This document shows positions 12,128 through 64,000 of a DNA stretch of 64,000 bases, piece after piece (the first letter of the stretch is position 1; each line of letters begins with the position of its first letter). The stretch lies in the NCBI GenBank assembly GCA_947044365.1, contig OX345637.1:3458501-3522500 (forward strand), in the 5' to 3' direction. The notes beneath the pieces were generated by a model that saw only the letters and a program-made list of their open reading frames with translations, was not told the DNA's origin and made no database searches. A program made the position numbers and the translations under genes. This stretch comes from Petrosia ficiformis (taxonomy: Eukaryota; Porifera; Demospongiae; Haplosclerida; Petrosiidae).

Positions 12128-15100
12128 ATGGATACACCTGTTGAAGAACAAAGGCATCGACACCTTAATGTGAGGATTGGACACCAGACAACGCCATGGT
12201 CCTTATTAGCCAACAGGTTTGGTTCATATATAGTGTACTTGTAGCTGTACTTGTACTTACATACAGTGTACCTTTACTTGTACCTGCACTGTGCCTGTAC
12301 CGACATTTAAACTCATATACATTATATAGTGTGCATACCTATACTTGTACTTGAGCTCATACCTCTACTTATACTTCAGCTCATACCTCTACTTGTACTT
12401 GAACTCACCTGTACACACAAATGTACACCTACAGAATAGTGTAAATGTACTTGTACTGAGCTCACCTGTACACTTACATAATGTACATATGTACCTGTAT
12501 TTGAACTCATTTACAATGTACATATACACTCATATACAGTGTTGTGTACTTGTGCTGTACTCATATACAGTCTACATGTACTCGTAGTAATAAAACTACA
12601 TTATTGCTATCAGAGCCTTGTCATTTTTACTTGCATGAGTGGTAATTTTTATAGCTTATTTGTCTCTATACTGTTAATTCTTCCTATTGTTATGTTTTTT
12701 CTCTATCCATAGACCTACTGATGTAGAAGGTGTATCAAATCAAACTAACCAATCAGATCCAACTGATCCAAGACTTACTCAAAGACAGGCTATAAAAACA
12801 TTTCTTCATCAAAAGCCTCATAGAGTCCACCAGATGGTTTTAATACGAAGAATACTTTATGTCATTGTGACATCAGCAGCTATGATATTAGCATGGGCTA
12901 TAGGTTAGTATATTGATATTAGCATGGGCTATAGGTTAGTATATTGATATTAGGATGGGCTATAGGTTAGTATATCGATATTAGCATGGGCTATAGGTTA
13001 GTATATTGATATTAGCATGGGCTATAGGTGAGTACATGTATATCGATATTAGCATGGGCTATAGGCGATATTAGCATGGGCTATAGGTTAGTATATCGAT
13101 ATTAGCATGGGCTATAGGCGATATTAGCATGGGCTATAGGTTAGTATATCGATATTAGCATGGGCTATAGGTTAGTACATGTATATCGATATTAGCATGG
13201 GCTATAGGCGATATTAGCATGGGCTATAGGTTAGTATATCGATATTAGCATGGGGTATAGGTTAGTATATTGATATTTGCATGGGCTATAGGCGATATTA
13301 GCATGGGCTATAGGTTAGTATATTGATATTAGCATGGGCTATAGGTTAGTATATCGATATTAGCATGGGCTATAGGTTAGTATATTGATATTAGCATGGG
13401 CTATAGGTTAGTATATTGATATCAGCATGGGCTATAGGTTAGTATATCGATATTAGCATGGGCTATAGGTTAGTATATTGATATTAGCATGGGCTATAGG
13501 TTAGTATATCGATATTAGCATGGGCTATAGGTTAGTATATTGATATTAGCATGGGCTATAGGTTAGTATATAGATATTAGCATGGGCTATAGGTTAGTAC
13601 ATGTATATCGATATTAGCATGGGCTATAGGCGATATTAGCATGGGCTATAGGTTAGTATATCGATATTAGCATGGGCTATAGGTTAGTATATTGATATTA
13701 GCATGGGCTATAGGTTAGTATATAGATATTAGCATGGGCTATAGGTTAGTATATAGATATTAGCATGGGCTATAGGTTAGTATATAGATATTAGCATGGG
13801 CTATAGGTTAGTATATAGATATTAGCATGGGCTATAGGTTAGTATATTGATATTAGGATGGGCTATAGGTTAGTATATCGATATTAGCATGGGCTATAGG
13901 TTAGTATGTCGATATTAGCATGGGCTATAGGTTAGTATATAGATATTAGCATGGGCTATAGGTTAGTATATCGATATTAGCATGGGCTATAGGTTAGTAT
14001 ATTGATATTAGCATGGGCTATAGGTTAGTATATCGATATTAGCATGGGCTATAGGTTAGTATATCGATATTAGCATGGGCTATAGGTTAGTATATAGATA
14101 TTAGCATGGGCTATAGGTTAGTATATAGATATTAGCATGGGCTATAGGTTAGTATAGGCTTATGAAATCAATAAAGTGGTGTACATGTAGGTTGATCTCA
14201 CTAATTAATAATATTATGACTATCAGTAGTAATCATGATAACAAGATACCTGATCAATATCTGATTAATAATATCCCATTACCAATCAAAATATCATCAT
14301 TCTGGCCAAATTTTTGCCATTTAGCTGAAATGTGAGCTTATGAGCACTGTAAAGTGGTGCAAAGGAGTGTCAAACTTCAGAATATTTTGCAAAACCATCT
14401 GTTGTTGAATCACACCTGTGCAAACCACCTTATATGGAAAACCATAAGTAGGTGTGATAAGTGTTTATAAAAATTATTATTAATTGACTATTGTGTGTGT
14501 CTGACAAGATAAGATGAGTCTGTATAATCCCCCACTTCTTTCCAGACAGAAACAATACTAGGTGCTACCAAACTCTGTAACAAAAGTGTCAAAGTACTGT
14601 CAGTGTGTTGATTCTACAGGGTGTACAAAAGGACTATTAATAGACAACAACAAAAGCAATATCTCTAATGAAATAAGCACATTATGATTAGTTTGTTACC
14701 TGGAGCAGGATGGGCTATAGGCTATAGAAACCACCTCGTATTCAAGCTTACTTCTCGAGATTCTTCTTGGCTTGTAGAACTTGCATGTCGGGCTTTAGTT
14801 AGTTTGAAGTGTCCTGTTTGAAATGTTCCATCCCAGAAATCTGTGCATTGGTTCCTTTGATCGCAATTTCGTCTCTACTAAACAACGAATCTGCTTTGGA
14901 TTGGGCTCGACTGTTCTTCTGCACAAGTTTTTTTGACATTGTTTTCTTGACTAGATTCTAACAATTGCCCACCCACTCCGGAATACTTATCTTAAACCCA
15001 TCCTTTTGACCGTATTTGGGGTTTTGCTGAAAGTGTAATTCAACAACAAATGGTTAGTGCAGTTTGACACCCATTCGTGGTCCTCATAAGCTCCTGGCAA

Positions 15101-16679
15101 TACATATTAAATTATTGAAATATCGATATTTTCATTCAATATCGTGATAGCTTTTAGGTGTATCAATACACTAGTATGGGCAGTTTAGTAAACCTGTTTT
15201 TTTTTCTAATTTGCCTAATTTTATACCTACAGTACATATACCTAACTTTATTAAGTTTAAATACTATTATGGGAGCTGCACTTTAATAAGGTGATATAGT
15301 CAACTGTACTGCTAAGTAGTACTATAGTACTACATGTACTTTGTACTGTAATCATAGTAATGTGTAAATTCCCTCTACATTTGTATGTGATAGCATAAGC
15401 ATAGTACTAAGGTGTAATACTGTACTGTAATACATTTGAAGTACAGTATACTTCGCTCAGAATGTTCACTGTTGTCAATGGAAGTACAGTGATGGTATGT
15501 AAACTTAATAATGTCAGGTAATGTACATGTAAAATCAAGTTAGTGTGGATAATTTGATTGTTAACATTTCTTGCAACTACAAACAAACAGGACATTTATT
15601 TACATTAATGTTTATAAACATTTCAATTATTATTAACCTGAGCGCGTAGGCGGAGGGTTATAGTAATCGGTTTGTGTGTTGTGTCTGTGTGTCTGTGTGT
15701 GTGTTACCACATAATCTTTGCAAATACCTGATGTTACTGGTTCATTGACACTGCTTTCCAAACGCTATAGTCTGATAATTCCGACATTTAAAGGATTTGT
15801 TCTGAACTCATCTTGTTGCAGAGAAACAGCCATGTAAATTCTCGTCGATCTGTCACCATCTTGAAATGTTTTCGTTTTTACTGATGTCAGCAGAAAACAT
15901 TGAACCACTAACTTTTGTCTCTTTGAAGCTTTGTTTCTTGAGCTTTGTCTATTGTCCTAACGAGTGTTTATACAGCTATTTGTGAAGTTTTGTCCAGAAA
16001 TTCACTAGTTCTCAAGAGATCTGATGGCCATGCTGTTCCCATTATTTGCATATTCATGATGTACTACTGACTTCTTAGTGTTGATACGAATGGTGTGTTC
16101 CTGGCTGTTGCAATATGTTACTTAGGCAAAGCTGTTCTAAAGCCATGCTGTTTAGCAGTAGCTAGCGAGGGTTCTGCACTTTAGTGCATTCATTTTTAAT
16201 ATTGTGATACCGTATTGTATTGTAATAATTTTGTCAGCATTACACAATACAATTTTATAGCCACATCTCACATCCCTATTGAAAATACAATACCACTATC
16301 ACAACCTTAGTATATGTACATATACACGGAGTCAACTGAGTCTAAATGCTAGAAAGAATAGACCAAATAGTGTGGAAAATGTTTTATCATATTACCTCGT
16401 GCAGTATGCCGTGCAAGGGGTTAAGTGATTGGTTCTGTCCGTCTGTCTATCTGTCTGTCTGTGTAGTCACATGTTTACTGTATGCATATATACAGGTTAC
16501 TACAAGATGTCTGTATTGGCATTAGTTGTTGTCATTATAGTGATAATAGTAGTATGGATTGATCAATCAAAGAAACTAGCATTAATTACTGAACAAGAAA
16601 TTGAAATGAAACTGAGGAGAAAGAAAACTGTACAAGTGTCAGAGACAGCTGAATGGGTCAACTTAGCAATCAATAGATG
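12128..16679 (+). CDS. ESYT: E-Syt-like exons 1-3: N-terminus and membrane hairpin
   Basis: Exon 1 (12128-12216) starts [20 protein letters not shown] and joins in phase 2 to exon 2. Its donor (gtttgg) is weak, but the reading frame and phase fit, and the next upstream frame gives no better start. Exon 2 (12713-12903) ends with the first hydrophobic stretch [19 protein letters not shown]. Exon 3 (16496-16679) gives the second, [18 protein letters not shown], separated by only YYK. This is the short hairpin typical of E-Syts. Exon 3 then enters the SMP domain at [13 protein letters not shown]. Confidence 0.88.
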
Positions 16680-19600
16680 GTAAGATCAAATAGTCTTTCT
16701 ATATTAATTTATGTATAATATATACATGTACAATTAACCACTTACGAAAAATGTTCATATTCAGTTTGGAATGATTAACAACATTTTCCTGCACTATTTG
16801 AATTAAATTCTATTGTACATGTACACATACATGTACATGTACATGTATGTGTACATGTATGTGGGCGTGTTTGTCTAATGAAATTTCACTTGTTAATTCT
16901 CGTATTCTAATTGATTTCTTATCTGTTCCAGGTGGATGACATGTAGTGATTCTGTTATTGGATTCATGAAAGATTATATTGAACCATTATTACAAGAAGT
17001 TGTACCTGTTGGTATAGGTAAGCTATATTATATGTTAAGTAAAATATATTAACCCTTGCCTGCATAGGCGGAGCAGAGGGTTACTGTAATGGTTTTGTCT
17101 GTCTGTTGGCAAAATTCCAACGAACCTACGAACATTAGCATTTAAAAATACTACTAGCAGACATCAAATCATACAAGGATCAAAAGTAACAATAGGCTTT
17201 TGCTAAAACCTTTCTGTTTTATATTAATGTGTACTTCAGTGTTTTATTTATACATTGTACATCACTTGACAAAATTATTATTACTTTACTGTGGAAACTA
17301 CATGTAGTATGGTGTTGTTTTAGTTTGACAAGACTGACCACTTTAGTTATAGTTGTAGTATTAATTTATCACAATATTACTTATAGTTATACATGTAGTT
17401 AATTAACTAACACAACTTTAGGTTTACTAAAAGGGTTTAAGTTTTACATGTACATGTAGTTCACTAACTAAAAATGCCCATTATTAGCCATTATCAATTT
17501 GCATTTTAGTTAGTTATAGTTATTACAGTAGACCTGTAATTTAGTTATAGTTTAGGTAACTAAAAGTCATATTGCCTTACTAAAAGGAGTTTTAGTTATA
17601 ATTAACTAAATTAACAATAATATAGTACATGTACTGTTGATTCAGTGAACTCACAGTGTTTAGTTTATTAACTTCCTTATCACAGATAGTCTGGAGTTAC
17701 TGGACTTTGACTTGGCTAATCAAACTCCATTTGTCAAAAACATTCAGATATTTGATCCTCCTGTATTAGCATCTCCGGGTAGTGAATTCATTTCTCCTTC
17801 CTCAACCAAAGCAATCATAGCAGCTAATATGGATATTGGACTGCTGGCTCCAGATAGTAAATTAACAATGAAAGTTCGTGTTGGAGGAAGAAAGTAAGTG
17901 ATATCTAACATACATGTACATTTACACCTCTAAACACCAGCAGGTGGTGCTTATATACCAACTAGCCATGGTTTATATAATATCGGGGAGCCCATAATGA
18001 TATCTACACCTTGAAGATCGCCAAGGTGAGCTAGTACATTCTGGATTTATCAGGAAAGTGAGAGCATGCTTTGGAAAAGGCGAGAAACAACCGTTTAGTT
18101 CTATTCAAAAGTGTTTAACATCATTTCAAGAGCTGACTTACAAAGAACACAAAGGAGATATTTCTACTTTATTAATGGCTTCACTAGCAACATCTTCAAA
18201 ATCTACATGAGCTACATGTAGATTATTGCCCAATTGTTTTCTCTGTTTTACAGTAAGCTTAGTCAATGTACTAGTACATGTAGCTGTTCGTTTTCTAGAA
18301 GCCATAATTCTAACGAAGGCCCGTGGGTTCTAAAAATAGTAACAGATGGTCAGACAGATACATGTACATGTACGTGTAGTTTGATCAATTTAATTAAATG
18401 TGTGGTCGTCTGCCGCTCCTACTCTTCCGCTTCTGGTCAACGTCATTATGGGCTCCTGATATTATATACATTGTGTACACATGTACATGTACATGTACAA
18501 TGTACTACATGTGTATATGATTTAATCATTGAATTCTTGATTAGGTGTTCATGCAAAGTATAAACTTTACCACATAAAATAGTTGCCATAATATACACAT
18601 AATTATATATAATATTTATACTGTACTTACTGTATTCTGAACTATCAGATCGCAGAATTCAAGGTATAATTATGATGGAACAGATTTCCCTACCACCAAA
18701 AGGCAATGGAACAAACCAATCAGATCCATTTTCATCACTGCTATTAGGCAAGCATTGTTGCTAAGCAACAGTTTTTTGCTGGTACTGCACTGTGTCAGAG
18801 AGAGTAATAGTGTTAGAATTCAGTTTTGGTATAGCTATTTAGTGTGGTAGATTGTGTAATTTGTTAGATTACCGTCAGCTGTTATTCCTCATCTTACTAT
18901 GGCAGAGCATAGTTTCACTTCCCATTAAAGAAGAAAAGATACATCATTATACTTGTTTCAAGTTGCTTGTATATGTTATATTATTATTCTACATATAGTA
19001 TTGGATATGACACTCTTGTACATGTTATATTATTATCCTACATATAGGATTGGATATGACACTCTTGTACATACTATATTATTATCCTACATATAGGATT
19101 GGATATGACACTCTTGTACATTTTATACAATCCTACATATAGGATTGGATATGACACTCTTGTACATACTATATTATTATCCTACATATAGGATTGGATA
19201 TGACACTCTTGTACATTTTATACAATCCTACATATAGGATTGGATATGACACTCTTGTACATACTATATTATTATCCTACATATAGGATTGGATATGACA
19301 CTCTTGTACATTTTATACAATCCTACATATAGGATTGGATATGACACTCTTGTACATACTATATTATTATCCTACATATAGGATTGGATATGACACTCTT
19401 GTACATTTTATACAATCCTACATATAGGATTGGATATGACACTCTTGTACATACTATATTATTATCCTACATATAGGATTGGATATGACACTCTTGTACA
19501 TTTTATACAATCCTACATATAGGATTGGATATGACACTCTTGTACATACTATATTATTATCCTACATATAGGATTGGATATGACACTCTTGTACATTTTA

Positions 19601-22600
19601 TACAATCCTACATATAGGATTGGATATGACACTCTTGTACATACTATATTATTATCCTACATATAGGATTGGATATGACACTCTTGTACATGTACATACT
19701 ACATGTTATATTATTATCCTACATGTACATATAGGTTCGGATATGACACTCTGGTATATATAGAGGGTCTGCATCTATCTGGTAGTATGCAAGCTATTAT
19801 TCATATTGATTATGAGGCTCCATTTCCTCATATTGCCTGTATATCTGCTACATTTGTGAGAAAGTAAGTAACTGATATATACAGTGTACATGTATGTATA
19901 CTCTATCACAAATGTGTCTGTGTATGAGAACATTAGTCACTTCTCCTGTGTGAAGCCCAACAACTAGGGTTGAGCGCTAATATCATCTTATCGATTATCG
20001 CGATAATTTTTAGCGATTGCGATGACATTTATAACAAATTTTGTATTGCAATAATTACCACATGTGTCAGCGAAAGTACTGTTATGATTTTGATAGTTTT
20101 CATTGAAAGCATCTTTAAGCTTAACAGTCACTATAGCTTTTCTAGATAAAGCTATGTCTGCATCTCTACTAATCTGCTTCAGACTGTGTGGCTTACTTTT
20201 CTTTTGCATGAACACTTTTGTCTTGACTATGATTCTAATAGTTGAGCACTCCCTTCCCACTAACTACATGTACATGTACATGTATCTTAAACCCGGCCTT
20301 TTTGCTGAAAATGTGATTGTACAACAGATAGGTACTGCAGTTTAATGCTCCTTTGCAGCACTTTGTGGTGCTCATAACCTTCCTGATAGTATGCATATGA
20401 CATTATCTCGATATTATCGTTATTGCAATAATTTGGCAATTACAATTATGAATGGTGACATGATAATATACCAATATCGCTCAGCCTTACTAACATACAT
20501 GTACATGTACATATGTACATGTAATTAATAATTATTATAGTTACTTTTTCCTATTTTGTAACAGTGCTTGTATAAGTGTATTCAACTACATTTTTATAAG
20601 CCATTGTAGCTACTTGTTTGTTTGTTGTGTTTGTTTGTTAATTGTTTCTATACCTATTGCTAGCATGCTAGACACATCAATTTTCATGTATAACAGCTAG
20701 TAATTACAGTGTCCTGCTTGTCTGCTGTAGCTCAACTGTGCTTTTGTTTATGTGCCACACCCATTAATTGACCAAGCCCCTGAAATCATGCAATGTTTAT
20801 GTGACATGAGAATATAAATATACATGTACATGTACATGTATTAGTATTCAATGCCATTGGGATGGCCCTGTAGGCCATAAACATCTTGTTTTAACTAACC
20901 ATCTCTATGATCTTCTTACATGCTGTATATGCTTGTGTGATAAACACACATGTACATGTAGTAGTGTTGTGGATATGACAAATAGGACAACTTTTAGTTA
21001 TAGTTCCGTAAATTTTAATTTTAATCCCTATGATTGCTTTCTAATTTCTATGTGTTTGATGTGTACAATATATTTACATAATTATTTGCTTGTGTTACAT
21101 ATTGGTTACATATCAAAAGTCACATTATTCCATGAGGGGATGTAAAGAATGCATAATGAAACTCTAAAGTCTGTCAGAAAGCAAACTGCTTGTAGCTTAT
21201 ATAGAAAATCAATACTGTTATAGGTGTAATAAATTGTATGTTCCAAAAGTTCTACAAGAATAAACAAGAATAAGTAAGAAGTAAATGTGAATACTATAAC
21301 TGTTATACAATGTACATGTACATAGGTTATTATTGTCAGGTTTTATAACTACAAATTATTTGTTTTTATGATTAGGCCTGACCTTTGGTATTCAGTTAGA
21401 GTTTGTAAAGGATTAAGAATCACTGATATTCCTTTAGTCAAGAGTTGGGTACACTCCTTCATCATGAGTATATTTCAGTCCTGTAAGTTACATGTATTAT
21501 AAGTAATATTATATCTATTATGAACATTTTGATGTTTAAAAACATGAGAATAATGAATATACCCATAGTATAGAGCCCTTACTACAAGTGTGTAATTGTA
21601 ATGATACTGGTATCAGTTATCAATATATACATGTACATGTAAACCCATCATCAGTTCATAATAATAATTATTGTGTTCATGTGTAATTATTTTTCATTAG
21701 TATTGGTTGATCCTGGTCGACTTGAAATTGATTTGATGTCATCCAATCCTCAAAGTATTGCTGATCCTCATAGTTCCAGTGAGTTATGTACATATACACA
21801 TGTACATACATGTATACATGTACATGTACATGTACATGTACATGTATATTTACTGTACATTGATATGACGGACGGCACTTCATTTGTTGTATATTTTATT
21901 TTAATTCAAATGTAGGACACATGTAATGTGTGTCTCTACATTGTTATACTACCCATGTGCTGTTCTTAGTCACTGTCTCCTCACAAACAGTTTATAGTCC
22001 TCTTGTATATACCATTGTGAATTCCTATTGTAACTTGTAAGTGTTATTGAATTTTCTTTGTATATCTCTTCCAATAGTTAATTGCTGTTAGAGTTTTGTT
22101 TCTTAGCTGTGAAAATACTGAACTCATTGAAATAAAATTATTTGAGAAATACATGCACATGTAATGAAGTCTAAAAAACTGAAACTCAATGAAAGCTTTT
22201 ATGAAAATTTCCAGCCTAAGATATTTTATTATTAATTTTACTTCAGTTGATAATAGTAATTACATGTACATGTACATGTACATTTCTACTTAGGACGTGC
22301 AAGAGGAGTGTTAACAATTACTTTTAGTGGGAATCCAACAGAACATCCATCAAAATATGAAGGTACATGTAACATGTACGAACATGTACATACATTTGTA
22401 GATTATTGTTATATATACATGTATGTATATGTATTCACTTGTGTTCTATGTACATAGATTGTACCTGTAGTTCTTTAATCTTACTTTTCCAGTAAGATTT
22501 CACACATGTTCATGTACATTATAGTTGTACATCATTGATATATATATGTTCCACGCAATCTGGGAATTTGCGCAAATTCCCAGATTGTGCGGAACTGTAT

Positions 22601-25972: not shown

Positions 25973-26032
<60 letters not shown>

Positions 26033-29748: not shown

Positions 29749-29816
<68 letters not shown>

Positions 29817-32800: not shown

Positions 32801-35789
32801 ATCATCAGCATCACTATCACCTGCCACGAGTAGCTTAGTCTTCACAGTACTCAAGGTCAGTCCCCACACCTTCAGAAGATCATCCAGTATAAGTCCTGCA
32901 CTCTCCATACTCTCCCTGCTTGTGCCAACTGCAGCTGCATCATCAGCAAATTGTAACACAGGGACTCTAGCAATGAAGGGCTTCCTCGTTCTCTCTACCA
33001 CCAACATCCCTCCACACTTGTACAGGACACTAACACCAAACTCCATGCATCTCTTTCACCACTGACCAAACACCAAATTGAAGTAAAGGTTGAAAAGCAT
33101 TGGAGCAAGCACACATCCTTGCCTCAATCCACTGCATACATCAAACTCCGAGCTACCTGACCATCCACTGTCACTTCAGCTTTCATACCATCATGGAGAG
33201 AGCGAATCATCAGCAGCATTGACTCAGGGATACCATACCAAACTTCCTAAACCCCTGAACCATAAAAGAGGCTTTTCTATCCACTGCCACTCCTCTACCA
33301 CCTTTCCTTGCCACTGCTGTCGCTATCGTGCCATCAGACTCTACCAGCGTCCTCATATTCCAGCAACCAAAACGCAACCTCTTGGCCTTCCTTTGGCCAC
33401 CAGCCATTTGCCCTTGCAAATTAACCATCTGTTCAACTTCTTGTGCTTACTTTGCTTTCTTTGAGTGTTGGTAGCACTGAGGGCTAGCAACACTGCTACA
33501 GTGCTTTTTTGGCATAAGCCTTCACCAAGCAACTTATAAAGTATCAACATGTATGGGATATTGGTACACACTGTACATGTACATGTGTAGGATATTGGTA
33601 CACACAGTACATGTACATGTGTACATCTCAAAGGACTCAGAACCTGAATACCCTAAATCAACTACTGGAAATTGTTTATTAAATACACAATGTAGATCTA
33701 CATACACTGATTGAAGATTGGTTTAGAAAATATCATTGTGTTCCTGATGATTACCACATGATACATGTACTTGTAGTTCATATCTGCAGTTCAAGAATGG
33801 GATACATACATGTAACTGATTCAGTTATTTATAAAATGGCATTACCATCTACATGTACATACTCATTGCATTCGTCTCACATTCCCATTTGCCTTTAATT
33901 GTAAATTCCACACTACAAAATGTAATAAGAAGCTAAATGCTGATGGTTGATATACATACACAGCCGTTGGTATTATGATATTTAATTAATAGCAGAGATC
34001 TGCAAGTACAAAGGAGTCTTCCCATTGAAGTACATGTATATGTGAAAAAGGACATCAGGAGACCGGGATATTGACTGACAATAATAATTATTATAGAGTT
34101 TTGATTCTTCACTGCTCTTAAAACACGTTTTGAAGATACACTGTACTTTCATGTTGTCTTTTGCACTTCACTCTTTTGTGTGTTTGACTACTATCACTCT
34201 CAGTAGAGTCGTACCAATTTGGCAAAGTGTTTTATCTTGAACATCACTGGGATCATGGTATTGCTTAAGATCAAAGGGCCAACAATGCCCACCAGCAGCA
34301 TATGGTACAACCATAGTAACCATGGTGCCACATTCAGCATATGGTACAACCATAGTAACCATGGTGCCACATTCAGGTGATACCATTCTAGAACTAATAG
34401 TCACCTTCTGTAGACTAATCCAAAAGTACAGGACAGGAATAGTCCACATATATAATAAGGATACTTTTATGCCATGCTAAAAAAACAGATACATGTATAG
34501 CATACCACCTTGTGCACACAGGATTGGCACTGTTGTGACGACATGCTCTTGTAGGTCCTCAAGCTATAAATCATTACATTGTCAATATATTCCATACTCA
34601 GAGATATCCTACATGTATATCTGTTACATGTAGTCTCTAAGCAGCCAAATATCAACTTTAATATTCCAATAATTACATGTATGTTCATTTAGAATGGATC
34701 AATATGGTGTAAGCTACAACATGTTGCATCTGGAGAAGTTCTGTTGGAATTGAGAAAACATGAACCAACTCAGGTGAATATAAATGAACTCATTGAGTTG
34801 TATCTGTAAGTACATGTATATACAATACCTGACATTATTAAGTTTACATACTATGATGAGAGCTACAGTTTAATAAGGTGATATTCAACTGTACTTCTAA
34901 GTACAATAGTACTATATACAATGTACTTTGTACTGTAATGATCATAATGTGTGAATATTTCCTTTACATTTGTACATGTATGTGATAGCATAGTACTAAG
35001 GTGTAATACTGTGTATTACATATTCAAAGTACAGCATACTTAACTCACAATGTACAATGTACACTGTAGTCAATCGATAGTACATGTATGTAAACTTGAT
35101 AGTGTCAGATACTGTAATAACATGAAACTTGCATTTGTATAAAAGATAATAATTATGCTGTGTGATCTTTTATTTCAATAATTTACTAAGTATTTAGCAT
35201 CTTATGGCTGTGGGCTGTGGGTTAAACTAGAAGATCCTAACTCCCTCCTGCTCTTAGGGAATCCCCTTCAGATCATAATTATTATAGTAATAGGTACATG
35301 TACTCATGTCAATGTACTATGGTATCAATATTGCCATACTATTAACTGTATTATGACTCAATATGTATACAATATATTCATTACATAGCAACAATCTCAA
35401 GACAGTTTATCATCTGGAGATATCTCGACATTAGATGAAGCATCAAAACATTTAATAGAGAGAGTAACAGATAGACACAGTATTGGAGGCAGTCTACCAG
35501 AAGAAGAGAGGAGAAGAACTGAACTGAATATACCTTTCATTACAACTACACCTTCTTCAAGAACGGAAAGTGAGAATAGTCAAGGGTTTCCTGTTATACA
35601 TCCTATGTCACACTCATACTATTCCTCTCCTAATTTGAATGCTCCTCTTGAATTTCATCCTCCTCTGATACCAACTACACAATCAGATCAGGAAATACAA
35701 GATGGTGATTTCACACTCAGTAAGTACATGTACTGTACATATATACCTGCATGTATTATACATGTATCTCTCTATTAATATAACACTGA

Positions 35790-45155: not shown

Positions 45156-46488
45156 TTAATATCTTCCATAGTAACCTCCTCCACGTGAGGAATAATATCC
45201 ACCACCACCACCACGAGGGCTTCCGTAACGAGGTGCAGGAGGGGGTAGATATCGACCTCTTGGGTGTCCAAAATGATGATGAGGAGGAGGGGGAGGAGGA
45301 GGGTAATATCCACTTCTGTATGGTTGTGGTCCATAACCATAACGAGAGTGAGGAGGAGGTGGAGGAGGAGGAGGATGATAAGGACGCCTAGAAAGAGGAA
45401 AATACATCAAAATGGATTAACCCTTTGAGCGCGATGTGCATATATATATGCTTAGCTTTCCCTTTAATTAAACGTGACGCGCATATATATATGCGCATAA
45501 AGTTTAGCGACTTCAAACAAGCCTTAAAGTATTTTAGAACTGTTTCAAACTTTCCATACATCTGTATCTGGCTTATAACTAAGTACCTACCAAGTTTAAA
45601 CAACTGTGTTACTTCCATGAAAGACTGTGAGCAGACAGACTCGACGAAGGAGACGGTCAACGCCCACCTTTCTAGAAAGTGAACGCTTGTCCTGACTTGC
45701 CTGCTGGGAATAGCTAGCTATAACTTACACTGTAGCTGGAGGAGACATCTAGCTTCTGTAGAATCACTTCATTTGGGGCGTGCATACAACTGTGTAGATA
45801 CAAAAGCCAAATCTCGAGCAACAACAAAAACGGTAAAGATTACGAAGGAATTGAGATGAAGCCATCTGATAATATTGTGGGTTTTTTAATCCAAACTTCC
45901 TGTTCTATAATTAGATTTCGTTTATTTATAGAATTGATAGCCATAACAACAATACAGAGCTAATAAAGCTTATGAATAAGTCATTATTACACCATCCGCG
46001 TTTAGTACATAGTAACATTAATAAACTAACGCGTTCAAATGGTTAATCAATCAATCAATGAAGTACATGTAGGCTCATGATGCATGTAAACACATGAAAT
46101 AAAATAACATACATGTGTATGGTTATACTATGATTACACAATTGAGCACATGAAAAAAACATACATGTAGCCTACATGTACATAAATACCTCACAGGATA
46201 TCACATAATGTAAAGAAATTGTCATTTCAACTTACCCATAAGGACCTCCTTTTGGACCATGATAAGAATGTCCTCCACCGTATCCATAGGAACCACCACC
46301 ACCGCCATAACCATAGGAACGATGTGAATCATAACGACTCCTCTTATTAGAAGGTATGAAATTACTTGATAATCCAAGGGCGTCATCTTTGTACTGTCTC
46401 ACTATCTTTTCAGCAGCATGGCCATATATTTCACTGAACATAATATTATCAAATACTTCATCCTCAGGTTGAGGTATATGGAAGTTGG
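45156..46488 (-). CDS. HNRNPU: hnRNP U-like: C-terminal tail exons
   Basis: Exon 46488-46236 reads ANFHIPQPEDEVFDNIMFSE, then AAEKIVRQYKDDALG, SNKRSRYD and repeats of GYGGGGGSYGYGGG. The last exon, 45387-45156, reads RPYHPPPPPPPPHSRYGYG, then a second poly-Pro run and a GSPRGGGGGYYSSRGGGYYG end. The tail is low-complexity and aromatic, of the kind that promotes phase separation; this is inference. The 0.85-kb intron between the two exons is largely one piggyBac-type MITE. Confidence 0.9.
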
Positions 46489-55400: not shown

Positions 55401-58400
55401 AATGAAGCCCTGAATATACATTTAATATTGAATATTCATCCAGTATTACTTATAATAGACTCACTTGATCAATTATATAATTCCTGTTTGTATTTATAGC
55501 AATAACAAACAACACGTTCAACATAGGTAATACAATCTCTTTTATCTCACTCCATTGAGTAAACTGTTTCATTCTGTCTGGTAAACCAGTAGCCTAAAGT
55601 GTGAATGTAGTTACACATTAGTGTACATGTACAATGTACATTGTGGCTGAACCTCTACACAGTACATTGTAGTATAATATACAATATACATGTACATGTA
55701 CTTGTATAAAGCAACATTGTATTTAATATAATCAGGAGTTTATGAGCGCCGTGAAGCAGCATCAAACTGCAGTATCCATCTGTTGTCGAATCACCAAAGA
55801 ACCAATGCACAGATTTCTGGGATGGAACATTTCAAATGGGACACTTCAAACTAACTGGAAGTCCGAAACGCAAGTTCTACAACCCAAGAAGAATCCCGAG
55901 AAGTACGTGTACATGCAAGCTTGATACAAGGCGATTTCAAATCCTGCTCCAGGTAACAAACTAATCCTCATGTGCTTATTTCATTAGAGATACATGTATT
56001 GCTTTTGTTGTTGTCTATTAATAGTCCTTTTGTACACCCTGTAGAATCAACACACTGACAGTACTTTGACACTTTTGCTACAGACTTTAGTAGCACCTAC
56101 ATTTGTACATGTATCCTTTGCTGACTATACTAGTATCGTTTCTGTCTGGAAAGAAGTGGGTGATTATAGAGACTCATCTCGTCAGACGCAAAGATAGTCA
56201 ATTTATAATAATTTTTAATTATTTTTTTATTTTAATAAACACTTATCATGCCTACTTAGATCGCTTACACAGTTTACAGAGGTTTCCCATATAAGGCAGT
56301 TTGCAAAGGTGTGATTCGACAACAGATGGTTTGCAAAACATATTGGAGTTTGATGCTCCTTCATGTCGCTCATATGCTCCTGATATAATGTACATGTACA
56401 AGAAAGGTTATCAGTCCACTGTAGTATACACTATACTTGTACATGTACATGTACCTTCATTCGATCCACCAACTGACTAACACCAAGCACAGTATATCTC
56501 TTCTCTGGATACTTAGCCATTTGTCTGCCAATCCAATTTGTCTTTCCTGAACCAGGTAAACCAACTGTGAAGATGACTTCACAGTCTCCTTTACTAGTAG
56601 GGGCAGTAACTGCATAATCCCTCTCCTCTTCTGCAGCTTCTTGTATGAAAGAGTAGCCTTCTTCTGGTGGAAATGATGACGGTTGACTTCCAAAGTTGAA
56701 AGATATTCGTATATTCTTTGTTGTGACATGAGGAAAGAAGAGTCTTTCCGTTGTGTCATCAATTACAAATGCTTGAGACATGTTCTCACCATTCTTAGTG
56801 AATGAAATGGTCTTAGAATCACTACTAAGATCCTGTATATAAGAATAAAATTATAATAATATTGTTTCATTTACAACATGTACCACACACACATGCAAGA
56901 ATGTTTCATTGAAATAAATGAATGAGGGCTGCTCAGGACCCTCGCATCAGGAAACAGTAAAGCACTAATGTCGTTTAATGGCCCAAAGAGTGATCGTTTC
57001 TTTTGGGTTTGATGTACATTTATATCTACATACATGTATATGTTTGTGTCACATACACATTGTATATGTTTGTGTCACATACACATTGTATACATAAAGA
57101 AGTTGCATCATTCCAGGGGGCTCATGTCAATTAATGGGTGTAGCAAGTATTAGAACACATGCTGAAGCTGCATGTTGGTTTGTGTAGACCAATAGCCATG
57201 TTGGGTGCAATACATTCCAAAAGATCCTTTCCAAAGTAAGGAGAGTAGATAATCAAATAATAACTACATGTACATGTATAATAGGCTGTAATTCATCTCA
57301 TCATTATTAAATTTCATTACAAATATTATCATAATTCAATTCCTGTCATTTTAATTACACATATGAGTTGTATATACATGTATTTCTTATCATTATGAGA
57401 CTAGCATAGTGTTAAATTCCATAGTAAATTGTATAATAATTGTTATATTAAATATTTTAGATACCTATCAAATTAGCAGGAGTACATGTACATGTATGCA
57501 AAAACTGAAAGAACAGAGAAAAAAGTATCCCTATGACTGCTTTATAGAACTTTAGGAATATATTGCAGGAAGAATCATCAACCATCAATCCAGTAAAGAC
57601 TTAAATCTTCAGATAATAAAGCCCTTCTTCTTAAGGGAAATAAGGATAAGCATTGATGAAGTATGCTATCAACAGCCAAGGAAGTAAATGGATACCATGG
57701 AAGACTTCAGTGACAATGATGATATACACTACAAGAGACAATATCTGCACAATAACCCGAAGTACACATGTACATGAGCTTAGTGGTGAGAACCAGATAA
57801 AGTGATGGATGTCCCCTCCTCCAGAGTGTCCAGAGCTCAATCCCATTGAAAATGTTTGGGGGAGTGTGAAGTAAGCTCTGAAACTTAAGTATAAACACAG
57901 GACTCTGCTACAACTGGAAGAAGCTATTTATTAAACACCACTGGCCAAAGAACTTAATCTAGCAGTGTGTACACAACACATTAACCATATTTACAATTGT
58001 TGAAGTTCATGATCAACCCTCTGGCTTCTACATGTAACACGTTTTGGGTTTTTGGTTCTTGTTTTCCATTATATACATGTACATGTAGATTTTTGAGACA
58101 CTCATTATAATACACAATGTACATGTAACTGTACTTTTAAAATTAGTATTATTATCTAAACACATTCCACATCATAAGTTCAATCAACACTCACAAGTGT
58201 AACACATTAATGAAATTCAATTCAATAAACAATATACCCCTATATATTAATAAACTACATGTACATGTATAAAGTTTGCATTTTTCGTTTGTTAGTGATA
58301 GCCAGGGTTTCATTCTTTGTATAAAGTCTACCAGTAGGTCATTCAATGTACATGTACCAACATTCTTATTATTTCCAGAAATTTTGCAAACAGACAGATA

Positions 58401-61400
58401 AACACCCAATTGTTTCGTGGAAAGGTAAATTATGTACAGTACATATTAAAAGAAACTTACGTTTCATGCATGTTTCACGAATGTTTCACGTGCGAGATGC
58501 GCAAATTATTTTAATTGCACCTCGAGTGCTAGTGAAACATAACACGCCTCTATACAATTGTGGTTTACTTAGCGCGTGAAATTTACTCGCATGAATAATT
58601 GTGGTTTTGTTTAAATAAACAGGGCGTATCCAAACAATAATTATTTTTATTATCAACAAAAAATAATAAAGAATATTAACAAATTATTAGAACAAAATAA
58701 ATATAATACTTTAATTTATCAATGAAACTCTAAATCAACTGATTCCCAAATGTCCCAGTTGTTTTCATAATCTTCAGCCAGATTTAATACAGCTTCTTCA
58801 TCTATTTGCTTTTGACGGGGTACTCTTCGACATGCTTCATCAATGCTTATGCGAATCTCCTTCATTATCAGCAATGTGTTATCTGAAGGTTTAGGTCTGT
58901 ATTGTCTAATACACGCTAATTTTATAGCTTTCAGTTTAGCTGGATCTAACTTACTTTTTCCTCTTACTCCACGGCAGTTACTCGTTTTTCGTTCCTTCTC
59001 ATTAAACAAACTCAAAGTCAACCTGCCAGCAAGATTTTTCCGGCTTCTACAGCCAACCATACATTTTTTTAGTAAACAGGAATCTATAGGGAATGGTTGA
59101 ATATTTTCCTTTCCTTGTGTCTGGAAGTGAAGGAATGGGGGTGTGAGTATCACATTGACCAAAAGGAGTATGTGAACGAAAAGAAGAAACAGGTGTTTCA
59201 ACAAGTGGTTGAACTGGTGGAGGCAATGGAGGAGGACTAGATGGTAGTTGTAGTACATTAGCAGATGATGGTACATTTTCCTGTGAAGACTGAGAGTGTA
59301 ATAATGACATAATTCCTCTTTTGATAATTAAAACTTCACTTCGAAGAGCAGTGATTTCCTATAGATTATTACAATACATGAATGTAAATACAATGTTATT
59401 ATATGTAAACTTACATCTGTCAGATTTAGTATCTGTTCTGTTTGTGTAGCCTTATTACTAGTCTCGACATATTTCTCTGTTTGAACTGAACAGTCAACTC
59501 GGAGAGGTGATGATGGTGGACTAAACAAGTCTTCAGAATAAACACTACTCACATCATCAATAATTACATCATTTCTCTCTTTGTCCAGGGATATTGGGAT
59601 AATAGCAGCAGGAGATCCCAGGGTGACTATAAATTCATCATCTTTATCTCTTCTATTTTCTTTGGGCCGTTTTGGTACCTGTAAATTATTATAAAATATT
59701 ATAAAATAATATATAACTACATGTGTATAAATATATTCCATAAATAATACGTAATTTTATTATAATCATGCTGTAATAAACAAATTACACTCACTTTGGT
59801 AGGTTCTTTTGTTTGCTTTCTCTTCTTTCCTTTGTCTGCAAGTTTCTCGCTTTCGCTCTCATCACCTAAATCTTCAACAATAGCGTTCCATATCTTCGCC
59901 CTACTCTGCTTTTTCTTTGTGAATTGAACCGTCACCTCCTGTCCAACTTTTAGAACCCCCTTGTTCTGAACGAACCTCCTGTCCACCTGATCGACTTTGT
60001 CTTTATATTTTCCCTCGTCGATCCATCTTAGTATGATTATATTATTTCCCGGCATCGTGGCTGTATAGTAGTAGGTGTAATATTACACAAGCTTTTATAG
60101 CTAACAACCAATGGATCTTCAAAGTCATGTTTGCTTGCTTCTGGTACAGGCGGTCTTCATCAATAAACGAGTCGACTCAGCAATTAATTATCGGGAAACT
60201 CCACCCTCTTACTGTCTTTAATGTTGTTGATCAAAGAGCCTTTTCATGATGATTATTTTTATAGATTAAAGAAACTTATAATTATTATAATTTATTATTA
60301 TCACATTAACAATATTTATTAATTTATAACAATTAGATGTATAACAGCACAAGAATGTATGTAGTATTATATGCACAATGATCAAAACCCAGATGCAGCT
60401 CCATTTTTTTCCTCAACAGCTTTCATAACTTTCTGGATATGATTGATATATCGAGTACACAGCTCTGGCGTCAAACCTTTCCAAAAATTTTTAATTCCTG
60501 CAACAAGCTCTTCTTCATTTTTGGGTTTAACCCTGTCCCGTAAGAATGTCTTCATGCTCCCCCAAATATTTTCTATTTGATTTAGATCGGGACTTTCTGG
60601 TGGGAGTACGCCACCAGTTTATAGCCCTCTCAGCAAAGAAATTTTTTGCGTAATTCGACGTATGCTTCGGGTCATTGTCCTGGTAGAATCTGTGACCACC
60701 GGGATAGGATTCCTTAATAAAAGGAAGAAGTGACTCTTCCAGGATTTTGGTGTACTTTGTTGCAATTAGTTTCCCTTTGAAAATTACAATTTTTGTTGCA
60801 CCTCTTTTAGATATCCCTGCCCAAACATGCACTTTTAACGGGTGCTTGGGTTTTGGTTTAAGCTTTCGAGGTTGCCCTTTTTTATGGTAGCAACGTCTGC
60901 TATTCCTCTCCACCTGAATAGTACTTTCATCCGAAAAAATTACGTCGTCAAACTGTTCTTTATCCTTAATTCTCTCCTTCACCCATTCCATTCTCTTTTC
61001 CATGTTTACTGTACGAATAAGTTGACAGTACCGCGGAGATGTCTTTGTCCAGCCTAGATCAGACCGTTGACGAGCTACTGTTGTTTGGGAGACTTTTAAT
61101 TCTGGATAATTTGCCCTTAAAAGGTCTGTAAGATCCCTAGTTGTTAATTCATCATTTTCTGCCATTTTTCGATCTATAAACTCTATATGTTCCTGAAGTA
61201 GTAACGAAAGACGTCCACTGCGTGGACGGTCCTCAAGAGATCCAGTTGAGAGCCACCTCTCAATTGTACTAGTCACAGTTTGCCTAATACAATAGTGTAT
61301 ATAGTTATAGGTAGTAGTATTATATATATATATTTATTATATATATAATTATATATATATATATATATATTAAAATTTTTTTTTGCTTACCTAGTTGTGT

Positions 61401-62573
61401 TAGTGCCTTCTTCAGCAAGAATTTGCTGTATACTTGATGCAGAAGCAGTTCTTCCTGATAACTCATAAATAGCTTTGATTCTTTCTCTCTCGTAGATTTC
61501 CAAAGGCATAATTATTATACTATTTCTAACTAGGTGTTGCTTTCTCTATCAGACTATCACGTGGAACTGCACATGCGCACGCACTGAATCACGTACGTGT
61601 AAATAACTGCACGCGCGTGCGCGTACGTGAACGCTTTCACGATCACGTCTACGTACACGCAAACGATCGCGAACGTGAACGTGAACGCGCTTGTTTCTTC
61701 TGCGTGTTGTGTTTCACTCTCGCGTTTTTTTTTCGCGAACGCGTAAGTTTCTTTTGTAACCCACTGTAATTACAGTACATTGCAAATGTACATGTAACTG
61801 CATGTACATGTAGGCTAGTTATTATAATTATCATACATTCAGTAATGCTCAAGTAATTTTTTGTTATCATTAATCGAAACATTAAGTAATGTACATGTCA
61901 GAAGGGTACAGCAGCTACAAACAGGGTTTTATCTGCGGGGAGGGTGGGAAATAACAAAAGATCTTACAAAGGGAATTATCATAGGGAGATGTGTGAGCCT
62001 TTTACACGTAGCTGATGATATTTAAAAGGTTCAAGATATATATACATGTACAGTCTGTACTTCCATTGACACTGTACCTCAAATGTACCACACAGCATTA
62101 CACATTATTACTATGCTATCACATACATGTACAAATGTAAAGGGTATTCACATATTACTATGATTACAGTACAAAGTAGTACTATAGTACTAACTCAGAA
62201 GTACAGCTAACTATCACCTTATTAAAGTGTACATGTACAATGTACATGTAGCTCCCATCATACATGTACATGTACATGCAGTATGTAAACTTCATAAAGT
62301 GAGGTACTGTAGAATACATTTACAATGTACATGTACATGTATATAATACAGTACTCAACTCACAATATAACATGTAATGATATCTCCTACAGTATATTCC
62401 TGCCCATAATCCTCTTTAGACTTTCCATTAACTTTCTTTCCTGAATTCTCATATCCAAAAGAAAATCTTTCTTCACCTACAACCATTGTTCCTTCAAGAG
62501 GGGACCAACCCACACGTACAAGATAAGGACACTCCTCGGTTTCTGGGAGATCAGTCGATAATTCTTCTTCTAT
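45156..62573 (-). CDS. HNRNPU: hnRNP U-like protein (SPRY + P-loop domain + Gly/Tyr- and Pro-rich tail), 5'-incomplete
   Basis: Six exons on the minus strand: 62573-62364, 56832-56455, 55593-55465, 53241-53070, 46488-46236 and 45387-45156. The sum is 1374 nt (457 residues plus stop) with all phases agreeing. hnRNP U / HNRNPUL proteins are nuclear RNA- and chromatin-binding factors with SAP, SPRY, a polynucleotide-kinase-like P-loop domain and a Gly-rich tail. Here the SAP region is missing and must lie upstream of the window. Visible parts: SPRY (about 1-120), Walker A GLPGSGKTNW (about 161), the conserved RNYIIDQ..VYFDSQKRK segment, then a GYGGGG / PPPPPPPP tail with few true RGG repeats. 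The gene converges on the E-Syt-like gene. Introns hold the BEN/Tc1 element and several MITEs. Confidence 0.9.
45417..46046. mobile_element. piggyBac-type MITE, copy 1 (TTAA, CCCTTTGA..CGCG ends)
   Basis: Left TTAACCCTTTGAGCGCG, right inverted TTAACCATTTGAACGCG, with TTAA at both boundaries. 630 bp, no transposase. Contains the palindromic step gcgcatatatatatgcgc. The same element is found inverted at 63218-63853. The open frames called on both strands are not genes. Confidence 0.9.
46489..51269. other. hnRNP U-like intron, distal part
   Basis: Mostly unrecognised AT-rich DNA with isolated TACATG tracts (46678, 47545, 49735-49753, 50800-50910, 51035-51055). It includes one MITE copy at 47848-48040 (gtagctcttcctggatacca, gtcctttttc). 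No exon was supported on either strand. Confidence 0.5.
47848..48040. mobile_element. MITE with TTTCCC..GGGAAA ends, copy 4
   Basis: Left gacaatttcccaaaaattac, right atttgatcaaaattatgttt then tgggaaagtgtcc; the ends are inverted. It shares the interior agctcttcctggataccaaa with the other copies. Confidence 0.65.
51270..51943. mobile_element. piggyBac-type MITE (TTAA, CCTTTACCGAC ends)
   Basis: Left TTAACCTTTACCGAC, right inverted TTAACCCTTTACCGAC, TTAA on both sides. 674 bp, no transposase. Internal stretches (gggcggagc, ttcgttatcagcaggaag, aaagccattgataccaaaaa) recur at 54440-54800 within another element. Confidence 0.85.
52270..53069. repeat. TACATG-rich intron sequence
   Basis: Dense tacatg tracts at 52270-52395, 52709-52723 and 52855-52900 are mixed with catactaagcacatacatgt units. 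No coding signal. Confidence 0.6.
53070..55593 (-). CDS. HNRNPU: hnRNP U-like: rest of P-loop domain
   Basis: Exon 55593-55465 reads ATGLPDRMKQFTQWSEIK, then VLFVIAINTNRNYIIDQ. Exon 53241-53070 reads VNVYFDSQKRKVKVFEGFDC, then CIVCIPPHHELRKRKAEQ and LDVLDAMK. The DQxNVY and VVxP..EL.KR patterns match the second half of the hnRNP U kinase-like fold. Whether it hydrolyses ATP cannot be told; hnRNP U itself binds ATP. Confidence 0.9.
53694..53733. repeat. Perfect 18-bp stem hairpin
   Basis: gttatcaaacctcccggt, loop cttt, then the exact complement. A single-base-different continuation, atgttattaaacctcccag, follows at once. Confidence 0.9.
54302..54403. repeat. Long hairpin, stem about 45 bp
   Basis: ggttatacacctcggtacgg tttctactgatttatcaaac pairs with gtttgataaatccagtagaa acctttacctcggtgtataa cc around a GC-rich loop (ctcgtgccttcggccctcg). 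A few mismatches. Confidence 0.85.
55731..56382. mobile_element. Non-autonomous DNA transposon, CAGGAG ends, inverted copy with target duplication
   Basis: caggagtttatgagcgccgt at the left, catatgctcctg at the right; it matches 36897-37728 in reverse. The 7-bp sequence atataat directly flanks both ends. Relative to the 36897 copy it has extra TACATG-type insertions (for example at 55991 and 55903-55914). Confidence 0.85.
56455..62573 (-). CDS. HNRNPU: hnRNP U-like: SPRY and P-loop exons
   Basis: Exon 62573-62364 reads ECPYLVRVGWSPLEGTMVVG, then FSFGYENSGKK and YGQEYTVGDIITCYI, the central SPRY strands. It is flanked by a good acceptor (tatttcag) and donor (gtgagt). Exon 56832-56455 continues with KTISFTKNGENMSQAF, RLFFPHVTTKNIRISFNFG and YSFIQEA, then CEVIFTVGLPGSGKTNW. 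That is the end of SPRY plus the Walker A loop of the kinase-like domain. The 5.5-kb intron between them holds the 58437-61766 transposon. Confidence 0.92.
57047..57200. repeat. GCCACACCCATTAATTGACC interspersed repeat, inverted copy
   Basis: Read on the minus strand: acacccattaattgacatga, gccccctggaatgatgcaac, ttctttatgtatacaatgtg and tatgtgacacaaac. It adds a duplicated 22-bp unit, tgtgtcacatacacattgta. Confidence 0.65.
57730..57970 (+). pseudogene. Decayed Tc1/mariner transposase, C-terminal end
   Basis: Plus-strand reading gives HNNPKYT near 57748 (from the usual DNDPKHT) and, about 34 codons on, PELNPIENVWGSVK near 57832. These are the second Asp and final Glu motifs of a DD34E transposase. 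It is followed by a recognisable but broken helical tail (TLLQLEEAI). Stops and a lost catalytic Asp make it dead. It is a different element from the one at 58437-61766, and in the opposite orientation. Confidence 0.75.
58719..60055 (-). CDS. BEN-domain protein gene inside the transposon
   Basis: Exons on the minus strand: 60055-59795 (87 codons), 59678-59415 (88 codons), 59357 to about 59203 or 59191, and 59120-58719 (ends TGA... H stop). Exon 1 starts MPGNNIIILRWIDEGKYKDK and forms a small basic domain ending KKRKQTKEPTK, an apparent nuclear signal. Exon 2 is acidic/Ser-rich. Exon 3 starts with a helix EITALRSEVLIIKRGIMSLL (likely coiled coil), then Pro-rich. The last exon has the BEN pattern LLKKCMVGCRSRKNLAGRL, TLSLFNEKER and LDPAKLKAIKLACIRQY. 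BEN domains bind DNA or chromatin. The frame change between exon 3 and the last exon needs either a 70-82-nt intron (good acceptor cttcacttccag, poor donor) or is a 1-nt indel; I cannot decide. Confidence 0.78.
60382..61509 (-). pseudogene. Tc1-type DD34E transposase, one intron, one frameshift
   Basis: Exon 1, 61509-61391, starts MPLEIYERERIKAIYELSGR; a 107-nt intron (61390-61284) holds a TA-rich run; exon 2 is 61283-60382. It encodes an N-terminal paired-type helix-turn-helix (ASSIQQILAEEG, then TVTSTIERWLSTGSLEDRPR with the linker SGR), a second HTH, and the catalytic motifs FSDES (near 60930), YQDNDPKHTS (near 60675) and IENIWG (near 60570). A one-base excess near 60605 throws out the frame before the final Glu. 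Ignoring that base the Asp-Glu spacing is 34 and the length about 339 residues, the normal size. As read, the protein is truncated, so this copy is probably inactive. Confidence 0.88.
61530..61766. promoter_or_regulatory. CpG-rich subterminal repeats of the transposon (right end)
   Basis: 61560-61745 is packed with cacgtg, acgtacgtg, cgcgcgtgcgcg and doubled gaacgtgaacgtgaacgcg, strikingly unlike the AT-rich surroundings. The left end (58460-58600) has gtttcacgaatgtttcacgt and gcgcgtgaaat, the same GTTTCACG/GTTCACG word. These are candidate binding sites for the transposase HTH or the BEN protein, and probably also the transposase promoter, which starts at 61509. Confidence 0.6.
62040..62312. 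mobile_element. CAGTACCTGAC-type MITE, copy 4 (inverted, heavily interrupted)
   Basis: Read on the minus strand it carries the same interior as 39353-39608 (cactttaataagg, gtactttgtactgtaat, tgatagcatag). It has long TACATG inserts at 62228-62250 and 62260-62280 that the other copies lack. Confidence 0.7.
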
Positions 62574-63217: not shown

Positions 63218-63853
63218 TTAACCATTTGAACGCGTTAGTTTATTAATGTTACTATGCACTAAACGCGGATGGTGTAATAATGACTTATTCATAAGCTTTG
63301 TTAGCTCTGTATTGTATTGATTGCTATAAATTCTATAAATAAATGAAATCTATTTATAGAACAGGAAGTTTTCATTAAAAAACCCACAACATTATCAGAT
63401 GGCTTCCTCTCAATTCCTTCGTGATTTTTACCGTTTTTGTTGTAGCTCGAGATTTGGCTTTTGTATCTACACAGTTGTATGCTCGCCCCAAATGAAGTGA
63501 TTCTACAGAAGCTAGACGTCTCCTCCAGCTATAGTGTAAGTTATAGCTAGCTATTCCCAGCAGGTAAGTCAGGACAAGCGTTCACTTTCTAGAAAAGTGG
63601 GCGTCGACCGTCTCCTTCGTCGAGTCTGTCTGCTCACAGTATTTCATGGAAGTAACACAGTTGTTTAAACGTGGTAGGTACTTAGCTATAAGCCAGATAC
63701 AGATGTATGGAAAGTTTGAAACAGTTCTAAAATATTTTAAGGCTTGTTTGAAGTCGCTAAACATTATGCGCATATATATATGCGCATCGCGTTTAATTAA
63801 AGGGAAAGTTGCGCATATATACATGTATATGCGCATCGCGCTCAAAGGGTTAA
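63218..63853. mobile_element. piggyBac-type MITE, copy 2 (inverted relative to 45417-46046)
   Basis: TTAA at both ends, ccatttgaacgcg at the left and cgcgctcaaaggg at the right. It is close to the 45417 copy along its full length, with small indels and a TACATG insert at 63818. Open frames called here are not genes. Confidence 0.9.
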
Positions 63854-64000
63854 CGTTATACATGTACATGTGTATGTGTTGTATACATGTACACTGTATT
63901 TTATTCACAATAAACCAGTGTTTTCCCTAAAGCACGTCAAAATTCTGAAAACGGAAGCCGCACCTCTAATTAAGAAAGGACACGCCCATAATTAATTAAC
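63854..64000. other. Window end, nothing recognised
   Basis: AT-rich with one tacatgtacatgtg tract. The missing 5' exons (SAP region) of the hnRNP U-like gene are not visible here and should lie further right. Confidence 0.4.

Follow-up and report, generated by a model that had tools for sequence, protein, structure and literature searches.

Why does a 64-kb stretch of chromosome 2 of the sponge Petrosia ficiformis (C2:3,458,501-3,522,500; the whole stretch is called the window below) hold 258 copies of TACATGTA, when 100 dinucleotide shuffles give a mean of 5.43 (standard deviation 2.05, maximum 11)? A sequence-only reading of the window had proposed that TA-CATG-TA is the scar left when a Tc1-type transposon excises from its TA target. 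We found that this reading was right in the main, and that the window very probably preserves Tc1/mariner-type excision events at high density. Most TACATGTA are highly likely to be excision scars of Tc1/mariner-type elements with CA...TG ends, probably miniature inverted-repeat transposable elements (MITEs).

In 20 random loci of 10 kb (185,000 readable bases, three loci having 5 kb of N each), TACATGTA occurs 174 times against an order-1 expectation of 14.6. The density lies between 0 and 35 per 10 kb, and 19 of the 20 loci hold more than twice the expected number, which shows that the effect is spread through the genome and that the window is a hotspot, at about 4 times the random-locus mean scar density. 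C1, which at 63,279,122 bp is about one third of the 191.2-Mb genome, supplies just 2 of the 20 loci. Extrapolation from these loci gives an excess of about 165,000 TACATGTA (order 1.6 x 10^5) per haploid genome. They were used in place of the raw genome-wide count (278,911), which includes satellite copies and is inflated by them as a number of scars; one such satellite lies near the start of C1, where TACATGTA recurs at a spacing of about 438 bp (C1:17897-54309). The reversed-pattern control, ATGTACAT, is also abundant (173,257 genome-wide). In the random loci its count fell from 115 to 37 once TACATGTA was masked (expected 15.5). Its excess is thus due largely, though not wholly, to TACATGTA, and it is usable as a control only after such masking.

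Gain of TACATG at TA in repeat families

Related repeat copies without the insert exist for the sites quoted in the sequence-only reading, and these sites are present with the quoted flanks (13033, 13176, 13598, 19720 and 55991, together with 34973, 35081 and 39508, which had been given as 34974, 35090 and 39509). The first three carry the TACATG insert but may not be independent examples, since all belong to a single 31-bp array and possibly go back to one event. When the window and the fetched loci (the mixed families) were all compared with one another, 443 derived insertions of up to 20 bp emerged. TACATG accounted for 11 of the 24 six-bp insertions, none of them tandem, with 2 in the next class, and all 11 had the form TA to TA-CATG-TA. 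In MITE family B (MITE B), 64 copies gave 90 clean-flank insertions, 26 of them of length 6 and three each of lengths 5 and 7. Here TACATG made up 21 of the 26 six-bp insertions, at 11 distinct sites, and all 21 lie at TA and yield TACATGTA. No other hexamer class rose above 2 in either set. These results show that CATG plus a duplicated TA was added at a TA in every case, as had been claimed, that TACATG is enriched over other 6-bp insertions, and that insertion at non-TA sites is not equally common.

The 11 mixed-family and the 21 MITE-B events overlap in six, giving a union of 26 events at 16 sites; copies with a common site (e.g. L051 and L053) may have inherited the scar, which makes the number of distinct sites the safer one to use. 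The 64 copies are a sample of 1147 candidates (39 non-window copies of 40 scored, 21 from a pattern list and 4 from the window), and the first 39 are biased toward resembling a scarred window copy. Removal of insertions with poor flanks took out 44 of 134 MITE-B insertions and none of the 21 TACATG.

Family A offers a site at which the unscarred state can be read directly. The site scarred in the window copy at 37200 was located by pattern in 15 of 20 fetched copies, which read A-TA-GG in 14, A-TG-GG in one and TACATGTA in none. The same TA is altered in two window copies, to TACATGTA in one and to TACATGTACAAATGTA in the other, a scar and a CA-NN-TG variant. The scarred family G copy at 63218-63853 is 636 bp long, compared with 630 bp for the query and 609-632 bp for the other listed full-length copies, a comparison of length only. 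Family G (45417-46046 and 63218-63853) is a young 630-bp repeat with 88-99% identity to the window copy, 40 of its 256 candidates having been scored.

Microsatellite slippage would have (TACATG)n grow and shrink in replication, with single units as decayed or nascent repeats, and it finds support in tracts of up to n=5 and in 44,606 dimer matches genome-wide. However, neither TACATG nor CATGTA occurred within 12 bp of any of the 11 empty MITE-B sites, the MITE-B majority sequence is free of TACATG, and none of the 11 mixed-family events is tandem. Slippage therefore cannot account for the MITE-B insertions, nor do the units appear only beside existing TACATG; it is contradicted as the origin of the polarised single units, and as the general explanation of TACATGTA we consider it very unlikely. 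A sequence bias or a functional motif such as a binding site, with no insertion at all, could draw on the enrichment of other palindromes in the random loci (ATAATTAT 8.1-fold, TATATATA 7.8-fold), but it is already contradicted by the polarised gain of exactly this one hexamer at TA in unrelated repeats, and its probability is negligible.

Target-site preference of the scars

Isolated single scars, from which those less than 14 bp from another scar were excluded, have A at position -3 in 61% of cases in the window (n = 129) and in 66% in the random loci (n = 133), compared with a background of 32-34%. T is depleted at -1, where the motif has a purine, and a pyrimidine is favoured at -2. The preference for A at -3 persists when CATG-phase flanks are left out (54% versus 30%, 154 scars) and when microsatellite-like flanks are left out (55% versus 27%, 42 scars). 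Since the flanks of a scar could be reshaped later, a test on sites known to have been empty weighs more. In MITE B, 17 of the 21 events fell on the 20 TAs with A at -3 or T at +3 and 4 on the 23 TAs without (p 0.0013); by distinct sites the result is 9 of 20 versus 2 of 23 (p 0.012). The presence of this motif on known empty sites also speaks against slippage.

The insertion sites of MITE B itself, of which 55 of 67 distinct flanks are TA, have A at -3 in 65%, T at -2 in 55% and a purine at -1 in 82%, and the corresponding figures for the scars are 63, 50 and 74. Over positions -4 to -1 the log-ratios of MITE B and scars correlate at 0.78, or at 0.71 without the flanks that hold TACATG. The target motif of the scars agrees with the MITE B insertion sites and with the consensus of Caenorhabditis elegans Tc1, which likewise targets TA and for which the available part of PMC9635669 gives CAYATATRTG. 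Taken together, these results independently support the interpretation of TACATGTA as an excision scar.

Resident Tc1/mariner-type elements

Elements of the required kind are present. MITE B has CA...TG ends, as worm Tc1 does, beginning with CAGT or CAAT, with 433 exact end matches and a median identity of 96.4% to the majority sequence (64 copies). The cut-off of the Tc1-type domain DDE_3 was passed by all 150 places scored of 323 candidates, and many of these have open frames of more than 300 amino acids. Clear inverted repeats were found in two of 12 fetched Tc1-like loci. The first, L071, is about 1.98 kb long, has TA-CAGTGGCGATCAGCC and TA-CAGCGGCGATCAGCC ends with CA at both (CAGT or CAGC), and contains an open 343-amino-acid transposase frame starting from TTG. 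The second, L066, is about 1.57 kb long, has TA-CAGTGGCGCCAGAAA and TA-CCGTGGCGCCAGAAA ends and encodes 340 amino acids, and two other copies match it at 99%. Its transposase has as best PDB match Sleeping Beauty (2.9e-55), which like Frog Prince belongs to the Tc1/mariner superfamily and targets TA. MITE B, L071 (at both ends) and the Tc1-like element in the window terminate in the dinucleotides that the scar retains, CA and TG; in L066 this is so at one end only. MITE B and L071 show the presence and spread of CA...TG-ended Tc1-like elements, excision itself aside, which speaks against a lineage in which no such family was ever active. The transposon at 58437-61766, to which the sequence-only reading had pointed, does have CA...TG ends as stated there (TA-CAGT...ACTG-TA), and its role as a source stays that of a candidate. 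Inside it, beside its transposase open reading frame (ORF), lies a BEN-domain-like ORF (58719-59276, minus strand; E 7e-4, below the curated cut-off).

These ends bear on another transposon that could leave the same scar. Minos-like elements cut with a 4-nt stagger, and a TA-targeting element of this geometry with CATG ends would expose palindromic CATG overhangs that anneal and are ligated to give the same +6. The uniformity of the scar in MITE B and the absence of a +4 outcome would suit such an element. In contrast, the ends examined are CAGT or CAAT (MITE B), CAGT or CAGC (L071), CAGT or CCGT (L066) and CAGT (window element), and the CA-N-TG and CA-NN-TG variants suit 2-nt ends better, which makes a CATG-ended source unlikely. 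The inverted-repeat scan was too noisy to detect or rule out CATG-ended families: limited to TA-flanked inverted repeats it was swamped by arrays, and an array of GTAGTCTCTACTGTCACA-like units in L017, a locus without TACATGTA, dominated it.

Footprint classes and evidence against excision

From the cutting mechanism, a +4 footprint would equate to TACATA or TATGTA. Of the four-bp insertions, none of 9 in MITE B and 2 of 42 (one tandem) in the mixed families had the form TA-X-TA with X = CA or TG. The Sleeping Beauty +5 type, TACAGTA/TACTGTA, accounted for one of the three insertions of length 5 in MITE B and for 2 of 32 (one tandem) in the mixed families. The results show that TA-CATG-TA keeps the target signature after strict filtering (13 of 37, base 0.111, p 1e-4). 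Among TA-X-TA end classes, CA..TG had the signature of highest significance for length 4, for length 5 and for 5-9 taken together; ranking by simple count ratios was uninformative, CATG itself lying mostly within scars. MITE B also has polarised longer variants, of +7 (CAATG, 2) and of +8 (CACATG and CATGTG). A +7 example claimed at 19705 is not a clean footprint and is accounted for by a mosaic of unit variants, since the TACATGTTATATT seen at 19700 recurs at 19019 in a different unit of that array.

The +6 scar retains both 2-nt ends, unlike the described +4/+5 norm, and the repair outcome differs. In the portions available of the respective papers, worm Tc1 typically leaves a somatic footprint of +4 (78%) and its germline breaks are mostly repaired by homology (PMC13148408), whereas in the sponge a +6 scar is inherited and reaches the order of 10^5 copies per genome; the footprint of Sleeping Beauty is C(A/T)GTA (PMC3878927), a type that in the sponge lacks the target signature; and the footprints of the superfamily are put at 2-4 bp (PMC7913693). 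The proposal that TA-CATG-TA is what Tc1/Tc3 leave thus survives as an excision scar and not as the usual worm footprint.

Several observations weigh against excision as the origin of most TACATGTA. The strict filter leaves only 37 CATG sites. After that filter TACATA/TATGTA (the +4 type) and TACAGTA/TACTGTA stand at background level (8 of 110 and 4 of 60), and TACGTA keeps a weak signature (3 of 10, p 0.04). Before it, TACATA, TATATA and TACGTA carry the signature (0.33, 0.25 and 0.36), which is put down to TACATA-like and TA repeats. CA..TG ranks second at length 6 and seventh at lengths 7-9, so the longer variants are a small class, and a second, unrelated class, GT..GA of length 4, bears the A-3/T+3 signature (n = 40, 0.47). 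The TA-GTGA-TA/TA-TCAC-TA sites in the window and in L001-L020 are that GT..GA class and possibly one repeat motif. In the mixed families, one to three partners align gap-free at 6 of the 11 events, and three events rest on one partner each (17390, 19720 and 63820). The sole +6 event in a gene-derived duplicate family (L116) copies an existing CATGTA and is compatible with slippage. The 20 fetched family A copies hold three scars in 17,410 bp, two of which lie inside the 50-bp flanks.

Further points of this kind concern the elements. The source is represented by candidates only (the window element, L071 and L066), and only one end of L066 starts with CA, the other reading CC. A joined-flank search for an empty MITE-B site found the MITE in 8 of 10 copies and one-sided matches in 2, none of them a clean empty site, and in this one search no TA was found occupied, empty and scarred. 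As a side observation, a segment duplicated on C1 and C5 (L116-L118 and L125-L131) contains coding-like sequence and, at one TACATG-TA, a copy of MITE B, and the MITE with both flanks is present in 8 of the 10 copies read. At L113-L115 (C1), near-identical flanks surround MITE B, and more MITE-B-like sequence follows past the right end.

Tracts of several units

Of the 199 tracts into which the window's 258 TACATGTA fall, 154 have one unit, 34 two and 9 three, with one tract each of four and five units. The sequence-only reading had ascribed the longer ones to repeated insertion and excision, possibly followed by slippage. No flank trinucleotide is favoured more than ATG (5.0-fold), and a scar presents ATG-TA on both sides. 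Among 55 distinct TA-flanked MITE-B ends, 6 adjoin TACATG, compared with 0.9% of random-locus TAs (p 1e-5); such adjacency can also arise when the TA of the MITE itself is scarred later. Of 174 units in the random loci 8.6% were follow-on units, and in the window the figure was 22.9% of 258. A rise with scar density is what re-insertion predicts, unlike a fixed slippage rate, and to this extent repeated insertion is favoured; slippage may contribute a share, and the L116 event is compatible with it. Tracts of at least two units may therefore mix re-insertion and slippage.

Distribution of scars in the window

The first 12,572 positions of the window hold no TACATGTA, for which p is about 8e-6 at the mean random rate (Poisson, although the loci vary between 0 and 35 per 10 kb). 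Target content explains neither the hotspot, where the target score is 1456 per 10 kb (12.5-64 kb) compared with 1501 in the random loci, nor the scar-free first 12.5 kb, where it is 1115 per 10 kb, about a quarter below the rest of the window. This scar-free part holds repeats matched up to 9 times within a small sample, and a long ORF (5112-7295, plus strand) with COR-A and weak Roc matches, of the type of a ROCO protein. In repeat-flagged sequence there are 3.4 scars per 10 kb in the random loci and 30.5 in the window, compared with 10.4 and 54.0 in the remaining sequence, and fewer scars in sequence repeated within the sample are expected if scars build up with age.

Proposed mechanism and known systems

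We propose that an element inserts at a TA, with the preference A-Y-R-TA-Y-R-T, and duplicates the TA; the insertion site and the TA are seen for MITE B. The transposase would then cut two bases inside the 5' ends, so that one flank keeps CA and the other TG, as the scar and Tc1/IS630 chemistry suggest. End joining that retains both 2-nt ends would give TA-CA-TG-TA, the scar that is seen, occasionally with 1-2 bases between CA and TG; the repair route might be non-homologous end joining with gap filling across unmatched 3' overhangs. As the scar ATG-TA-CAT is the most favoured flank, repeat insertions would help to build (TACATG)n, with some slippage in addition. A 2-nt stagger was demonstrated for ISY100 (PMC2170065, available in part), and the stagger in the Tc1/mariner superfamily is stated as 2 or 3 (PMC3878927, likewise). 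The simplest chemistry would be a 2-nt stagger followed by a joining step that presumably keeps both overhangs.

A wider proposal is tentative, and we hold it to be possible rather than probable: transposition in this genome would log a heritable scar at nearly every move, with both 2-nt ends kept, and ATG-TA-CAT scars would seed further scars, making an apparent hexanucleotide microsatellite. Sponge germ cells derive from stem-like somatic cells. End joining rather than homologous repair in the cells that form gametes could be behind the very high load. If the excision reading is right, the history of excision, which usually escapes view since elements depart and seldom leave scars, would be countable and datable genome-wide in an animal. 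Per-site rates of insertion plus excision could be derived from it, as well as the repair pathway that acts on heritable breaks. One kind of microsatellite would be explained by transposition, and in genomes of this sort slippage would not be the default explanation of hexanucleotide repeats and 6-bp indels.

Grass Stowaway/mariner MITEs also leave short footprints on excision (PMC4561436, in the part available). In rice, by contrast, the available part of PMC4423477 counts 8 perfect excisions of 94 over all superfamilies, with deletions or filler in most, whereas the sponge has one clean type. ISY100 and the IS630 family differ in being bacterial, and the portion available of PMC2170065 does not describe a genome-wide scar load. 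Compared with the footprints described in these portions of the literature, the sponge scar stands apart in two respects: the main outcome keeps both 2-nt ends, and the scars occur on a genome-wide scale. Among the literature matches listed, most subscription papers being outside their scope, there was no prior report of TACATGTA/TACATG as a Tc1-type scar, or in sponges.

Features of the window

Table 1. Coordinates of scars, repeats and elements in the window
Feature	Position	Strand	Remark
Scar-dense region	12573..63891	.	All 258 window TACATGTA; 199 tracts (TACATG)1-5 TA; none in 1-12572
Scar, unit of 31-bp tandem array	13033..13040 (also 13176-13183, 13598-13605)	.	Possibly one event copied
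Scar, MITE family B copy, consensus TA 95	15331..15338	.	Same TA scarred in L099 and L110
TA-to-TACATGTA difference	17390..17397	.	Against single partner L018; direction of change ambiguous
Scar, last unit of 95-bp array (CC-TA-CATATAG)	19720..19727	.	Single partner
MITE family B, Tc1/mariner-type, TA-CAGTACCTGAC...GTCAGGTACTG-TA	34821..35116	+	Majority sequence 275 bp
Further MITE B copies	15239-15525, 39356-39610, 62083-62231		
Scar, MITE family B copy, consensus TA 142	34973..34980	.	Shared with copy 62083-62231
Family A, repeat of about 800 bp, CAGGAGCTTATG termini	36900..37697	+	Bystander bearing scars
Scar, family A copy	37200..37207	.	Against fetched family A copies
Scar, MITE family B copy, consensus TA 154	39508..39515	.	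Against majority sequence
Scar, inverted family A copy (GAGA-TA-TTGC)	55991..55998	.	Repeat comparison
Second window copy of the 37200 family A site	56098..56113	.	TA-CATG-TA-CAAATG-TA in family orientation, +14
Tc1-like element, TA-CAGTACATATTAAAAGAAACTTACG...CGTAAGTTTCTTTTGTAACCCACTG-TA	58437..61766	-	TA-CAGT...ACTG-TA ends; candidate source type
Transposase ORF of the Tc1-like element	60527..61276	-	Pfam DDE_3, 2.8e-9, profile positions 1-114 of 146
Scar, inverted MITE family B copy, consensus TA as at 34973	62124..62131	.	Repeat comparison
Scar, 94% family G copy (63218-63853)	63820..63827	.	Seen against copy 45417-46046

With regard to the E-Syt-like exons, which together with the hnRNP U-like ones had been proposed to lack scars, the one search for SMP domains gave 0 matches in the P. 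ficiformis genome and likewise 0 in the control genomes. At 32480-33046 (minus strand) a weak RVT_1 match (2.8e-4, under the cut-off) marks a fragment resembling a long interspersed nuclear element (LINE).

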